DNA of 64,000 bases, from positions 124,001-188,000 of the forward strand of contig DASXVO010000028.1 of assembly GCA_036504215.1 (NCBI GenBank), written 5' to 3'. This document shows positions 32,663 to 37,542 of this stretch, one piece after another. The DNA comes from Vicinamibacterales bacterium (lineage in GTDB: Bacteria; Acidobacteriota; Vicinamibacteria; Vicinamibacterales; Fen-181). Made by a program: the position numbers and the translations under genes. The notes below the pieces were generated by a model that did no database searches, was not told where the DNA came from, and was given only the letters and a program-made list of their open reading frames with translations. Within the stretch, counting starts at the first letter, position 1; each line of letters begins with the position of its first letter.

Positions 32663-34033
32663 CTACAACGGTTCGAACTGGGCCGTGAAGTGGCGCAGGA
32701 ACTTCGGTGCCGAGGTGATACGGTACCCCCGCAACGTTTCTTTCAGACGTGCGACTTCGAGAACGCCCTCGGCGACGTAGTCAATGTGCGACTGCGTGTA
32801 GACGCGGCGCGGAATGGCCAGACGGACCAGATCCATGGCGCCAGGGCTCTCGGTCCCGTCCGGATGCAGGCCGAACATCACCGTCCCGATCTCGACGCCG
32901 CGGACTCCGGCCTCGACGTACAACGCGTTGGCCAGCGCGATGCCCGGATACTGCAGGGGCGGAATGTGCGGGAGCAACGCCCGCGCATCGAGATAGATCG
33001 CGTGGCCGCCGGACGGACGGATCGCGGGCACACCAGCGGCTGTCAGCTTGTCCCCCAGGTATTCGGTGGAGCGGATGCGATACCGCAGGTACGGCTCCTC
33101 CACCACCTCCTCCAGCCCGCGCGCGATGGCTTCCAGGTCGTACCCGGCCAGACCGCCGTACGTCGGGAACCCTTCGGTGAGGATGAGCAGGTTCCTGGCC
33201 GCCTCGGCCCAGCGGTCGTCGTTCATCGCGAGGAAGCCGCCGATATTCGCCAGACCGTCCTTCTTCGCCGACATGGTGCAGCCGTCGGCGAGCGAGAACA
33301 TCTCCTGAGCAATGGCCTTCGGCGTCCGGTCGGCCTGACCCGCTTCACGCAGCTTGATGAAGTAGGCGTTCTCCGCGAACCGGCAGGCATCGAGAAAGAA
33401 GGGCTTCTTGTATCGATCGCAGAGCGCGCGGACGCCGCGGAGGTTCTCGAGCGACACCGGTTGGCCACCGCCGGAGTTGTTCGTCACCGTCACCATCACG
33501 AGCGGAATCCGGTCGCCGTCCTCGCGAAGGGCCCGCTCCAGCGCAATGAGGTCGATGTTCCCCTTGAAGGGGTGCACGAGCGCCGGCACGCGTCCCTCGG
33601 CGATGACGAGATCGCGCGCTTCACACTGCTCCACCTCGATGTTGGCGCGCGTCGTGTCGAAATGGTTGTTGTTCACGACCACCTGACCGGCCTGCAGCAT
33701 CGTGTGGAACAGGATGTGCTCGGCCGCACGGCCCTGGTGTGTCGGGATCACGTGCTTGAACCCTGTCAAATCACGTACAACCGCCTCGAACCGGTAGAAC
33801 GACCGGCTCCCGGCGTACGACTCGTCGCCCTGCATCAGGGCGCCCCACTGCGCGGCCGACATCGCGCCCGTCCCTGAGTCGGTGAGCAGATCGATCAGGA
33901 CGTCCTCGGCCCGAAGCCGGAACACGTTGTACCCCGCGGCGGCGAGGGCAGCCGCACGGTCGTCACGATTGGTGAACTTGATGCCTTCGACCGACTTGAT
34001 ACGAAACGGTTCGATGATCGTGCGGAAATTCAT
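32663..34033 (-). CDS. tnaA: Tryptophanase/tyrosine phenol-lyase family beta-eliminating lyase
   Basis: 456 residues, a PLP enzyme that splits an aromatic amino acid to pyruvate, ammonia and indole or phenol. Family landmarks: PFRIKSVE, YNVFRLRAEDVLIDLLTDSGTGAMS, PTHQGRAAEHILF, PFFLDACRFAENAYFIK and the PLP lysine in TMSAKKDGLANIGG. The segment aligned to the tyrosine phenol-lyase substrate arginine reads VRGVEIGTVMFG, like VEIGS of E. coli TnaA, whereas tyrosine phenol-lyase has MERG. This favours tryptophanase. No tnaC leader or permease gene is adjacent, and the gene appears to be almost leaderless. Confidence 0.85.
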   Translation of the reverse strand: MNFRTIIEPFRIKSVEGIKFTNRDDRAAALAAAGYNVFRLRAEDVLIDLLTDSGTGAMSAAQWGALMQGDESYAGSRSFYRFEAVVRDLTGFKHVIPTHQGRAAEHILFHTMLQAGQVVVNNNHFDTTRANIEVEQCEARDLVIAEGRVPALVHPFKGNIDLIALERALREDGDRIPLVMVTVTNNSGGGQPVSLENLRGVRALCDRYKKPFFLDACRFAENAYFIKLREAGQADRTPKAIAQEMFSLADGCTMSAKKDGLANIGGFLAMNDDRWAEAARNLLILTEGFPTYGGLAGYDLEAIARGLEEVVEEPYLRYRIRSTEYLGDKLTAAGVPAIRPSGGHAIYLDARALLPHIPPLQYPGIALANALYVEAGVRGVEIGTVMFGLHPDGTESPGAMDLVRLAIPRRVYTQSHIDYVAEGVLEVARLKETLRGYRITSAPKFLRHFTAQFEPL

Positions 34034-34255: not shown

Positions 34256-35368
34256 TTACTGTTCCCACGGCAACCCCGCCTTGCCGAAGTGCCCGTAGTT
34301 CGTCGTCGTCCTATAGATCGGCTGCAGCAGGTTCAGTTGCTCGATGATCGCAGCCGGACGGAAGTCGATCTTGTCGAGGAACGCGCGGGCAGCCCGCTCG
34401 TCGCCGGTTCCGTAGGTCTCGACCTTGGTGGACACCGGTTGCGCCTTGCCGATGGCGTACGCGACCTGCACCTCGGCTCGCTTGGCGATGCCGGCCTTCA
34501 CGATCTGCCGCGCCACATGACGGCCGAAGTAGGCGCCGCTGCGGTCCACCTTCGACGGGTCCTTGCCGCTGAACGCCCCACCGCCGTGATGCGCCGCGCC
34601 GCCGTACGTGTCCACGATGATCTTGCGCCCGGTCACGCCGCAATCGGCCGACGGTCCGCCGATGGCGAAGCAGCCGGTCGGATTCACCAGCACGTCCACT
34701 TTCGGCGAGAACCAGTTGCCCAGCACGCGCGGGGCCAGTTCTGTGGCCACGTAGTCGAAGATCGTCTTGTGGTCGGTCTCCGCGGCATGCTGCGTGGATA
34801 CGAGCACGCACGTTACGCCGACCGGGGTGCCGTTCTCGTACTCCACCGACACCTGCGATTTGGCATCCGGCCGGAGCCACGGGTAGTTGCCACTCCGGCG
34901 ATCGTCAGCGAGTCCGCGCGTCAGGCGATGCGCCAGCAGGATCGGCAGAGGCATCAACTCGGGCGTCTCGTTCGTCGCGTAGCCGAACATCATGCCCTGG
35001 TCGCCCGCGCCCTGCTCCTTGTCGAGCCCGCGACCTTCATCCACACCCTGTGAGATGTTGTCCGATTGCTTCGACAGGAACTGGAGCACCTTGACGCGGT
35101 CCGCATGGAACGCCTCGCCGTCATGGAGGTAGCCGATCTCGCGAATGGCCTGCCGCGCGATCGCTTCGTGGTCCACCTTCGCCCTCGACGAGATCTCCCC
35201 AGCCAGCACGACCTTGTCGTCCTTGCACATGACCTCGCACGCCACACGGCTGCGCGGATCACCAGCGAGATAGGCGTCGAGGATCGAGTCGGCGATGTAA
35301 TCGCACACCTTGTCGGGATGACCCTCGGATACGGATTCGGATGTGAGCGTGTGCCTCAGATTCTGCAT
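34256..35368 (-). CDS. metK: S-adenosylmethionine synthetase
   Basis: 370 residues. It makes S-adenosylmethionine from methionine and ATP in the cytosol. Signatures: SEGHPDKVCDYIADSILDAYL at the N-terminus (ATP/Mg site), GAGDQGMMFGYATNET (the conserved GAGDQG hexapeptide), and GRKIIVDTYGGAAHHGGGAFSGKDPSKVDRS in the C-terminal domain with the phosphate-binding GGGAFSGKD. GAGGAA precedes the ATG by 6 nt. The long leader carries a predicted SAM-sensing pseudoknot and an intrinsic terminator, so expression is probably shut down by its own product. Confidence 0.97.
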   Translation of the reverse strand: MQNLRHTLTSESVSEGHPDKVCDYIADSILDAYLAGDPRSRVACEVMCKDDKVVLAGEISSRAKVDHEAIARQAIREIGYLHDGEAFHADRVKVLQFLSKQSDNISQGVDEGRGLDKEQGAGDQGMMFGYATNETPELMPLPILLAHRLTRGLADDRRSGNYPWLRPDAKSQVSVEYENGTPVGVTCVLVSTQHAAETDHKTIFDYVATELAPRVLGNWFSPKVDVLVNPTGCFAIGGPSADCGVTGRKIIVDTYGGAAHHGGGAFSGKDPSKVDRSGAYFGRHVARQIVKAGIAKRAEVQVAYAIGKAQPVSTKVETYGTGDERAARAFLDKIDFRPAAIIEQLNLLQPIYRTTTNYGHFGKAGLPWEQ

Positions 35369-35651
35369 GGTGCTTCCTCAATAGGTGAATAGAAAACCCA
35401 GGCGCGCGGGCTCATCGCCCGAACGCGCCGGGCTGCACGTGACCAGGCACAGTCATGCGGACTCGTCATGCCCTTTCGAGATCGCGGTCAGTCTCGCTCG
35501 CGCATGGCTCCAGGCCACCGAGGCCTGGCCGGCTGGGCCACCGTGCGCTCCAGAGGCTGGAGCCGGACGACGGTGTGGCGTACGGGTCATCGAGCCGGGA
35601 CTCTCGCCGTACTCTTCATGCCGGCAGCCCGAGACAGAGCTGCCAGGCGGC
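35369..35651 (-). other. Distal part of the metK leader, non-coding
   Basis: About 280 nt between the leader terminator and the metK start. No convincing open frame on either strand. It holds further hairpins, for example GGCAGC/GCTGCC at 35623-35644 directly after the U-tract and CCAGGCC/GGCCTGG at 35510-35528. I see no second promoter that can be defended. Confidence 0.5.
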
Positions 35652-35687
35652 AAAACAAAAGGGCCTCGCGACCGAATCGCGGGCCCT
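35652..35687 (-). terminator. Intrinsic terminator in the metK leader
   Basis: On the minus strand AGGGCCCGCGA pairs with TCGCGAGGCCCT (11 bp, one bulged A, UUCGG loop), followed directly by TTTTGTTTT. This is the only hairpin in the window with a clear U-tract. TCGCGG (35690-35695) could instead pair with CCGCGA (35677-35682), an antiterminator that uses part of the terminator's 5' arm. Confidence 0.85.
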
Positions 35688-35694
35688 GGCCGCG

Positions 35695-35765
35695 ACTTAG
35701 ATGGTCAACGTATCCCGTCCAGCCGAAGCTGGTGCGTGGCCCATCAAGTCACGAAATCGCCACGC
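35695..35765 (-). promoter_or_regulatory. Predicted SAM-II-class riboswitch upstream of metK
   Basis: An H-type pseudoknot can be drawn. P1 is GCGUGGC (35759-35765) with GCCACGC (35734-35740). The P1 loop starts GAUUU and ends ACUUGAUGG, which pairs with CCAUCUAAGU (35695-35704): 9 bp interrupted by a single bulged U. P1 and the pseudoknot helix abut, as in SAM-II, and the UUG/CUAA pairing with a bulged U mirrors the SAM-II core, where that U contacts the ligand's adenine. A CCAGC-UUCG-GCUGG hairpin is inserted in the connecting loop. Pairings are seen; class assignment relies on recalled SAM-II structure and the metK context. Confidence 0.65.
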
Positions 35766-35774
35766 TCTTCTGAC

Positions 35775-35804
35775 ACTATGGCGCCCATGCGACGTCCCTG
35801 TCAA
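35775..35804 (-). promoter_or_regulatory. metK promoter
   Basis: TTGACA (35799-35804), an 18-bp spacer and CATAGT (35775-35780). The start point would lie a few nt before the predicted riboswitch, giving a leader of about 400 nt. Confidence 0.7.
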
Positions 35805-35823
35805 GGCGCCAACAGAGCACGCC

Positions 35824-37542
35824 CTACCTCGGCAGCTCCCGCCACACCGCGCGAAGTTCGTCCACGGTCGCGAATCGCGCGGCCGGTTCACGGTCCAGCG
35901 CGCGCTGCAGACACGCGGAGGCCTCGTCGGGCACCGTCGCGCACGCATCCGTGGGACGCGGTGCGCGGCCGCCCAGCATGGCGCCGAGCAATTCCGGCAG
36001 CGTTCTCCCGGTGTACGGCAGCATCCCGGTCGCCATCTCGTAGAGCAGGACTCCAATCGTGAAGATGTCCGACCGGACGTCCGCCGCCCGCCCCGTCAGC
36101 ACCTCGGGCGCAATGTAGGGCATCTCATTGCCGGCCAGCGCGCCGCCCCGCACCGCCTCGTCGCTCAGTGACGCCAGCAACTCCTGCACCTGGCCGATCC
36201 CGCCCATCGAGATCATCAGCCGCTCCCCATCCTCATCGGTCGTCATGCGAATGATGCCGGGGTTGAGGCCACAGAGCAGCACGCGACGCTTGTGCAGCGC
36301 GGCGGCCGCGTCCATCACCTGCAGCCCGAGCCCATGCACCCGCGGCCACTCGAACGGAGCCTCGGCATCCAGCACCTGCAGCAGGCTCTCGCCCACAATC
36401 AGGTCGGTCACGAGATACAACGTACCGTCCTCTTCCCCGAAGTCACGGACCTGGATCACCGACGGATGCGATACCTGCAGTCCCCTCGCCTCTCTCAGGA
36501 ACCGTTCCCGAACGGCCTCCCAGTCCGGTCGCTGCCCGCGTCTCAGGATCCGGATTGCCACGGGCAGGCCAAGCGCCCGATGTGTCCCGGAGTGGACCTC
36601 GCTCCCCAGGCGTCCGCGGTTGATCACCGGTCCGATCTCGTACTTCGCCTCGAGAGCAGAGGGGGGGGGCGTCGACGATCCACCGACCGCCGCGTCCCGG
36701 CTCCCGGCCAGGGCCCTCGCGAAGTCCGACATCGTTTGGTGCCGGTCCGCGGGGTCTTTTGCGAGCGCCTCGAGGACCACAGCGTCCAGCCAGGCCGGCA
36801 CGGCCGGCTGAACCTGGCTTGGCACCGGTGGAGGCTCGCACAGGTGTTTCGTGATGAGGCCCATCGGATTGGCGGACTGGAACGGCGGACGCCCGGTCAG
36901 CATCTCGAATACCACCACGCCGAGGCTGTAGATGTCGCAGCGCCCATCCACGTCCAGTCCCTGCACCTGCTCTGGCGAGGCGTAGAGCAGGGTCCCGACG
37001 AATTGATCCATCCGCGTCATCCGCGTGTCACCGCCCGCGCGGATGTTGGCGAGACCGAAATCGATGATCTTGAAGACCCGCTGGTCGGAGCCGAACGTGT
37101 GCCCGACGATGTTGGCCGGCTTGAGGTCGCGATGCACGATGCCGCTGTCGTGGGCGAGTTGAAGGGCCCCGCACAGCGGTTCGACGATCTCCTGCACGGC
37201 AGCCGGGCTCATCGGGCCCAGCGCGGCCAGTTCGTCGGCCAAGCTGCGCCCGTTGAGGTACTCCATGACCAGATACGGCTGCCCGTCCTCGGCAATCGCG
37301 AAGTCGAGAATCGTGACGATGTTCGGATGCCGGAGTTGCGCGCACGTGCGGCTCTCGCGCATGAACCGGTCGCGAAGGTCGCCCGCGTCCTGTCCGCCCG
37401 CCCGAATCACCTTGATGACGACCTCGTCGCCCAGGAGGACCCGGCGGGCGCGATAGACCTCCCCCATGCCGCCGGCCGCCAGCAGCCCGGTGACCTCATA
37501 CCGGCCGTCGATGAGGGCGCCTTCGGTGAGCACCGCCGACAT
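35824..37542 (-). CDS. Ser/Thr protein kinase with tandem pseudokinase domain
   Basis: 572 residues, no membrane segment. Domain 1 (about 15-270) is a Hanks-type kinase with all key elements: LLAAGGMGEVY loop, Lys in VVIKVI, catalytic IVHRDLKPANI, metal-binding IIDFGLANI and YASPEQV. Domain 2 (about 300-570) has the same fold but has lost catalysis: VAIRIL has Arg for the Lys, HRDLKPxN is replaced by CGLNPGII, and DFG by MGG. APE and the SDIFTIGVLLYEMATG helix remain. The pseudokinase may regulate domain 1 or bind a partner. Start is ATG at MSAVLTEGALIDG; a GTG two codons upstream is possible. Confidence 0.88.
   Translation of the reverse strand: MSAVLTEGALIDGRYEVTGLLAAGGMGEVYRARRVLLGDEVVIKVIRAGGQDAGDLRDRFMRESRTCAQLRHPNIVTILDFAIAEDGQPYLVMEYLNGRSLADELAALGPMSPAAVQEIVEPLCGALQLAHDSGIVHRDLKPANIVGHTFGSDQRVFKIIDFGLANIRAGGDTRMTRMDQFVGTLLYASPEQVQGLDVDGRCDIYSLGVVVFEMLTGRPPFQSANPMGLITKHLCEPPPVPSQVQPAVPAWLDAVVLEALAKDPADRHQTMSDFARALAGSRDAAVGGSSTPPPSALEAKYEIGPVINRGRLGSEVHSGTHRALGLPVAIRILRRGQRPDWEAVRERFLREARGLQVSHPSVIQVRDFGEEDGTLYLVTDLIVGESLLQVLDAEAPFEWPRVHGLGLQVMDAAAALHKRRVLLCGLNPGIIRMTTDEDGERLMISMGGIGQVQELLASLSDEAVRGGALAGNEMPYIAPEVLTGRAADVRSDIFTIGVLLYEMATGMLPYTGRTLPELLGAMLGGRAPRPTDACATVPDEASACLQRALDREPAARFATVDELRAVWRELPR

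Follow-up and report, generated by a model that had tools for sequence, protein, structure and literature searches.

A tandem leader RNA upstream of metK in a Vicinamibacterales bacterium: a SAM-II-like pseudoknot and a divergent SAM-I-clan element in a probable SAM OFF switch

The stretch analyzed here (the window) comprises 64,000 nucleotides of a Vicinamibacterales genome (assembly GCA_036504215.1, contig DASXVO010000028.1, positions 124,001 to 188,000) and carries metK, which encodes S-adenosylmethionine (SAM) synthetase, behind a leader with two conserved RNA elements and an intrinsic terminator between them. We consider it likely that this leader is a tandem SAM OFF switch, in which a SAM-II-like aptamer and a divergent SAM-I-clan aptamer act by two mechanisms; metK is probably silenced by two routes once SAM is plentiful. 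Judged by anatomy and context, the first element is a discrete SAM-II-like variant and not a proven member of SAM-II, and the second is, by sequence homology, a divergent relative of the SAM-I clan that is missed by Rfam. With this leader, metK of one further bacterial order seems to be under the control of SAM riboswitches that escape current models.

The pseudoknot element and its conservation

All parts of the leader lie on the minus strand, directly 5' of metK (Table 1). The promoter held by the original prediction to be a good one bears that description out, since its TTGACA-18-CATAGT arrangement agrees with the consensus at 10 of 12 positions and is the sole promoter match of a consensus scan within 700 nucleotides. 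A TTGACA-like box is found at a comparable distance in several homologous leaders. Transcription would be expected to start at about 35768, just 5' of helix P1, and the aptamer would thus begin near the predicted start.

The H-type pseudoknot with abutting helices and a GAUUU segment after P1, which had been proposed from the sequence, is real and recurs 5' of metK in other genera and families; this conservation indicates that the element exceeds chance. Helix P2, which abuts P1, comprises 10 pairs and not the nine originally counted, while the bulged U described in its 3' strand is present at 35699. The extra UUCG hairpin in the connecting loop L3 was also correctly noticed, though it lacks wide conservation: L3 varies from 12 to 60 nucleotides among loci and differs in sequence, and the hairpin is kept in close relatives only.

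A nucleotide search located the leader before metK in three of six other genomes of the same family; public metK relatives are too distant to inform on it. The pseudoknot pattern ACTTGATGG ... CCATCTAAG matched 9 of 162 genomes of the order, and the reversed control pattern matched none. With a covariance model of the element (R2), built from six GAUUU-bearing sequences, it was identified in 55 of 193 genomes of the class, with about 47 matches at E<1e-5; weaker matches fell mostly within coding sequence and were excluded, save three copies bearing GAGGGG. Pairs were counted by direct parsing of 43 loci, since P1 was misaligned by MAFFT in the copies with GAGGGG and a number of P1 3' strands were misplaced in the model alignment.

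Each pair of P1 is formed in 86–100% of these loci, and double-sided changes occur at five of its seven pairs, for example from C-G to U-A (six times) and from G-C to A-U (four times). The covariation anticipated in relatives is therefore found in P1, whereas in the pseudoknot helix, where each pair is formed in 91–100% of loci, the changes are one-sided and of the G-U type only. The helix P2 appears too conserved to covary.

The GAUUU segment is found in all 38 parsed metK-linked loci, and 38 of the 39 parsed loci that bear it lie upstream of metK, the remaining copy being located elsewhere. It is replaced by GAGGG in four parsed loci, none of which adjoins metK. The pseudoknot elements with L1 altered from GAUUU to GAGGGGCC are L097, L099, L100 and L101; in the last three, a GGGGCC segment complements the terminator 5' arm, and the switch may have been rewired in this way.

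The terminator and the proposed switch

The terminator stem with its flanks has a predicted folding energy of -21.1 kcal/mol. A simple terminator scan gave no match at 35687-35652, probably owing to a bulge. A terminator-like hairpin followed by a U-tract is present in 40 of the 43 loci, and the GUCGCG strand together with a CGCGAC-like partner in 35, in agreement with the U-tract terminator and antiterminator originally proposed for metK. The antiterminator and P2 are mutually exclusive. Since the GUC is common to the 3' strand of P2 and the antiterminator, a ligand-stabilized P2 should free the terminator, which would make the arrangement an OFF switch.

At low SAM, the 3' strand of P2, AAGUCGCG, would pair with the CGCGAU of the terminator 5' arm, and the resulting antiterminator would allow metK to be transcribed. 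At high SAM, the triplex of P1, P2 and L1 would be stabilized and the 3' strand of P2 held in place, so that the terminator could form and transcription would stop before metK. Transcripts that read through would carry the second aptamer (35644-35498); its SAM-bound form most likely blocks the initiation of translation. We infer SAM as the ligand of both elements, the OFF direction, termination by the first element and control of translation by the second.

The second element as a divergent SAM-I-clan RNA

The second element lies between the terminator and metK, beyond the coordinates of the original prediction, which had overlooked it, and is conserved in sequence more than the first. It is found in 11 of 193 genomes of the class, in one copy each. 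The alignment of these copies gives a 5' hairpin followed by a four-way junction of P1, P2a/P2b, P3 and P4 with a four-nucleotide J1/2 turn, and the same topology has been described for the SAM-I layout (PMC6890682). Pairing is maintained in 98.5% of alignment cells, compared with 93.8% in shuffles and at most 38% in all slid controls, and double-sided changes occur at 10 pairs. The P2-loop CCGG is complementary to the CCGG of J3/4 in 11 of 11 copies; both strands are invariant and too conserved to covary.

The model R1 was built from the 11 second-element sequences only, with no SAM-I sequence; its 165.9 bits on the window copy are those of a member of its own training set. Across 58.6 kb containing SAM-I and SAM-I/IV loci, R1 gave its best matches at 36.8, 32.8, 28.9, 28.8, 20.7, 20.0 and 18.8 bits, with the next at 15.1. 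Six of these seven (36.8, 32.8, 28.9, 28.8, 20.7 and 18.8 bits) are sites named RF00162 or RF01725 by cmscan, and a control of 58.4 kb without SAM-I reached a maximum of 13.1 bits. The remaining match (20.0 bits, L264:1340-1450) is a second SAM-I-like site beside a named SAM-I riboswitch, under the Rfam threshold; it is possibly an intermediate form.

Like SAM-I (RF00162, placed with SAM-I/IV in clan CL00012), the second element thus combines P1, the AAGA of J1/2, P2a/P2b, P3 and P4 with the A(n)A-CC/GG-U-G core in P3 and the complementarity of the P2 loop to J3/4. Unlike SAM-I, it has an extra 5' hairpin, the pair G43-C59 is swapped to C-G, and two further differences, an inserted nucleotide and the lack of an Rfam match, are considered below. 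At loci away from metK, the element ends beside a Shine-Dalgarno-like GAAAGGA and a start codon; for the present genome, a translational mode is weakly suggested.

Other readings of this element were rejected. A short open reading frame is contradicted by in-frame stops that differ among copies and by covarying helices, and carriage by phages or plasmids by the lack of any match in either; seven exact 18-mer matches in viral contigs are not the second-element RNA. Readings made by eye as a T-box, a hepatitis delta virus (HDV)-like or a cobalamin RNA were dropped after the SAM-I homology was found.

Tandems of SAM-II with SAM-V and with SAM-I/IV are known (PMC9481103). The leader resembles these in carrying a SAM-II-type aptamer with its terminator and, 3' of them, an aptamer of another SAM class. 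It differs from them in that both aptamers are divergent and undetected by Rfam and that P2b, P4 and a putative pseudoknot of the P2 loop give the second a SAM-I-like make-up. It also contributes a divergent aptamer of the SAM-I clan and a tandem of two mechanisms, combining transcriptional with probable translational control.

Relation of the first element to SAM-II and weighing of alternatives

In SAM-II and SAM-V, SAM sits in a triplex of L1 uridines with P2, where a bulged U reads its adenine, a U:A.U triple lies opposite its sulfonium, and its amino-acid end is contacted by an adenine, namely A47 in SAM-II and A50 in SAM-V (PMC6061858; PMC3764141). The nucleotides C23, G42 and A47 are completely conserved in SAM-II, and A47 contacts the amino and carboxylate groups of the methionine (PMC3764141). 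Nucleotide numbers here follow the SAM-II crystal structure, and we infer the same folding register for the variant. On this numbering, the first element keeps U10-U12, U20, U21, G22, C43, U44, A45 and A46, and UUG stands over CUAA with the bulged U in 43 of 43 loci. It shares with SAM-II (RF00521, SAM_alpha) the H-type pseudoknot, P1 followed by GAUUU, and UUG opposite C-bulged U-AA, along with a terminator, which is frequently found 3' of SAM-II, and an association with SAM or methionine genes. It differs in a P2 that is continuous over 10 pairs and in its location on metK.

Several findings weigh against reading the leader as a pair of SAM aptamers. In the first element, C23-G42 is replaced by A-U in 39 and by G-U in four of the 43 loci, and A47 by G in all of them; RF00521 (gathering score 36 bits) gave no match at E<=10 in 35300-35900; R2 and canonical SAM-II show no significant cross-match; and the support for P2 is maintained complementarity without double compensations. 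In the second element, Rfam scans covering the window and three homologous leaders returned no match to RF00162, RF00634 or RF01725, the A45-A46 of SAM-I is split by one inserted nucleotide, and the element ends 130 nucleotides before the metK start codon. The pocket of the first element may bind SAM weakly or bind something else.

The assignment to the SAM-II class made in the original prediction consequently stands for the core (P1-GAUUU, UUG/CUAA and the bulged U) and fails for membership, given the lack of an RF00521 match and the changes at C23-G42 and A47. A phylum-wide scan with RF00521 found no match in the bacterium's own genome, and at E<=10 no Rfam SAM family, SAM-V and SAM-II long loops (RF01726) included, matched in 35300-35900. 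Because R2 lacks a significant cross-match, the case for homology between the first element and SAM-II is built on topology and core nucleotides. A search of open-licence papers found no mention of the variant.

An ordinary canonical SAM-II riboswitch, merely too GC-rich and long-looped for the Rfam model, would have the identical topology and the same GAUUU, UUG and CUAA nucleotides, and RF00521 does match weakly (12 bits) at the right place in one homologous leader, L005. However, C23, G42 and A47 are uniformly different here, whereas UUGC and GCUAAA are kept in all 22 parsed canonical matches of the same phylum; moreover, none of 65 sequences is intermediate between UUGC/GCUAAA and UUGA/UCUAAG. 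With the absent cross-match, these data make the canonical explanation highly improbable.

The same pocket positions bear on the ligand. A SAM-II-derived aptamer that has shifted to another metabolite of the SAM cycle, such as S-adenosylhomocysteine (SAH), methylthioadenosine or decarboxylated SAM, while still repressing metK, would account for changes that fall on A47 and C23-G42 in 43 of 43 copies versus 0 of 22 canonical ones, and a riboswitch for spermidine, likewise encountered near metK, did arise from SAM-I by pocket changes (PMC10853860). Such a shift is nevertheless rather unlikely, considering that U11, U21 and A45 of the sulfonium triple and the adenine-reading U44 are kept and that the association with metK is nearly exclusive. 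It is likewise unlikely that the A47G/A-U variant constitutes a separate SAM-II-derived class with another ligand, or with dual SAM/SAH sensing, forming a two-input gate on metK with the second element; the part of that proposal in which the replacement of GAUUU by GAGGGGCC in copies not linked to metK marks a further ligand shift or a loss of sensing is equally doubtful. About 40 loci in different species have replaced the nucleotide thought to be needed to grip the amino-acid end of SAM, providing a natural test of the role of A47.

A protein-dependent or constitutive attenuator, with a pseudoknot that serves as a structural timer or as a site for a protein and has no metabolite ligand, would fit a P2 that is nearly invariant over 10+10 nucleotides, as a protein site could be, and has a parallel in SAM-Chlorobi, a metK leader motif without SAM binding in preliminary tests (PMC2864571). 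That most of the SAM-II ligand core is matched exactly, and that UUU is lost solely in copies not linked to metK, makes this explanation very unlikely. A tandem of two SAM aptamers thus remains the preferred interpretation.

SAM-V has the same triplex core and ligand placement as SAM-II and occurs in tandem with it; however, it is translational and marine and has A18 and A50 where the first element has C and G. The SAM-II long loops family combines a SAM-II core with a longer connecting loop, as here, yet has been described from Bacteroidetes and marine sequences (PMC2864571).

Two expectations about SAM-II itself have to be revised. Transcriptional attenuation had been called unusual for the class, whereas most SAM-II riboswitches are said to be transcriptional in the SAM-V structure paper (PMC6061858), and metZ of S. 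meliloti is a predicted SAM-II terminator case (PMC9373788). SAM-II had also been considered mainly alphaproteobacterial, whereas 34 of 396 genomes of the host phylum, mostly of one family, have RF00521 matches above threshold. The canonical copies examined in the phylum mostly precede homocysteine methyltransferase/metH, and some precede threonine synthase or a MoxR operon. At two loci (L234 and L235), two tandem SAM-II-like aptamers, each followed by a terminator-like hairpin, lie 5' of a threonine synthase-like gene; the first aptamer of L235 is above the Rfam threshold.

Table 1. Features of the metK leader in the window (positions of the window)
Feature	Position	Strand	Evidence
metK, S-adenosylmethionine synthetase (370 aa)	34256-35368	minus	Pfam S-AdoMet_synt N/M/C 1.8e-36, 1.4e-40, 1.6e-58
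Sigma-70-like promoter, TTGACA 35804-35799, 18-nt spacer, CATAGT 35780-35775	35775-35804	minus	consensus scan
P1 helix GCGUGGC 35765-35759 / GCCACGC 35740-35734, encloses L1 and 5' strand of P2	35734-35765	minus	double-sided changes at 5/7 pairs, 43 loci
GAUUU, start of L1 (SAM-II U10-U12 third strand)	35754-35758	minus	38/38 parsed metK-linked loci
Pseudoknot P2 GACUUGAUGG 35750-35741 / CCAUCUAAGUC 35704-35694, bulged U 35699	35694-35750	minus	91-100% paired per pair
Hairpin CCAGC-UUCG-GCUGG in connecting loop L3	35719-35732	minus	sequence; peripheral
Antiterminator GUCGCG 35696-35691 (overlaps P2 3' strand) / CGCGAU 35681-35676 (terminator 5' arm)	35676-35696	minus	partner kept in 35/43 loci
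Intrinsic terminator, stem 35687-35660, U-tract 35660-35652 UUUUGUUUU	35652-35687	minus	fold
Second conserved RNA, divergent SAM-I-clan element	35498-35644	minus	R1 165.9 bits, covariation, R1 matches at SAM-I sites
Second element, P1 and J1/2 AAGA	GCAUG 35621-35617 / CAUGC 35506-35502; 35616-35613	minus	
Second element, putative pseudoknot CCGG / CCGG	35598-35595 / 35532-35529	minus	

Genomic context

Among genomes of the window's family, five carry the second element 5' of metK. In one genome of this family (G006), the pseudoknot is lost and the second element is kept before metK, which argues that the two elements are modular. In G069 and G070, the second element precedes a gene for a MoxR-type AAA ATPase; in G069, whose contig extends further, the operon goes on to encode a small protein, a protein of the VWA type and a divergent paralogue of MetK (S-AdoMet_synt_C 1e-20). 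In related genomes, the same MoxR gene is preceded by a tandem SAM-II in G080 (L225; the second copy was recognized by eye), by SAM-I/IV in G159 (L248), or by SAM-I in G067 (L263) and G113 (L264). Since the MoxR gene has SAM-II, SAM-I/IV or SAM-I leaders in these genomes, the second element sits where SAM riboswitches sit. An operon of MoxR, VWA and MetK-like genes whose leader is filled by four SAM-type arrangements points to an uncharacterised SAM-linked system. At three further second-element loci, the downstream genes have no Pfam match.

The order of MoxR, small protein, VWA and MetK paralogue is complete in G080 (L236) and G069 (L237). At L100 (G068), the tandem leader and the first MoxR codons run straight into a pair resembling HicA-HicB, which looks like a replacement of the operon. 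In the window, metK is followed on the minus strand by a tryptophanase/tyrosine phenol-lyase-like gene (32663-34033, assigned by eye). The SAM-I/IV riboswitches of the order (L246-L261) often precede short hypothetical genes and not methionine genes, and a hairpin of the form GGGUGUCUUC...GAAGACACC recurs before the start codon at these loci.
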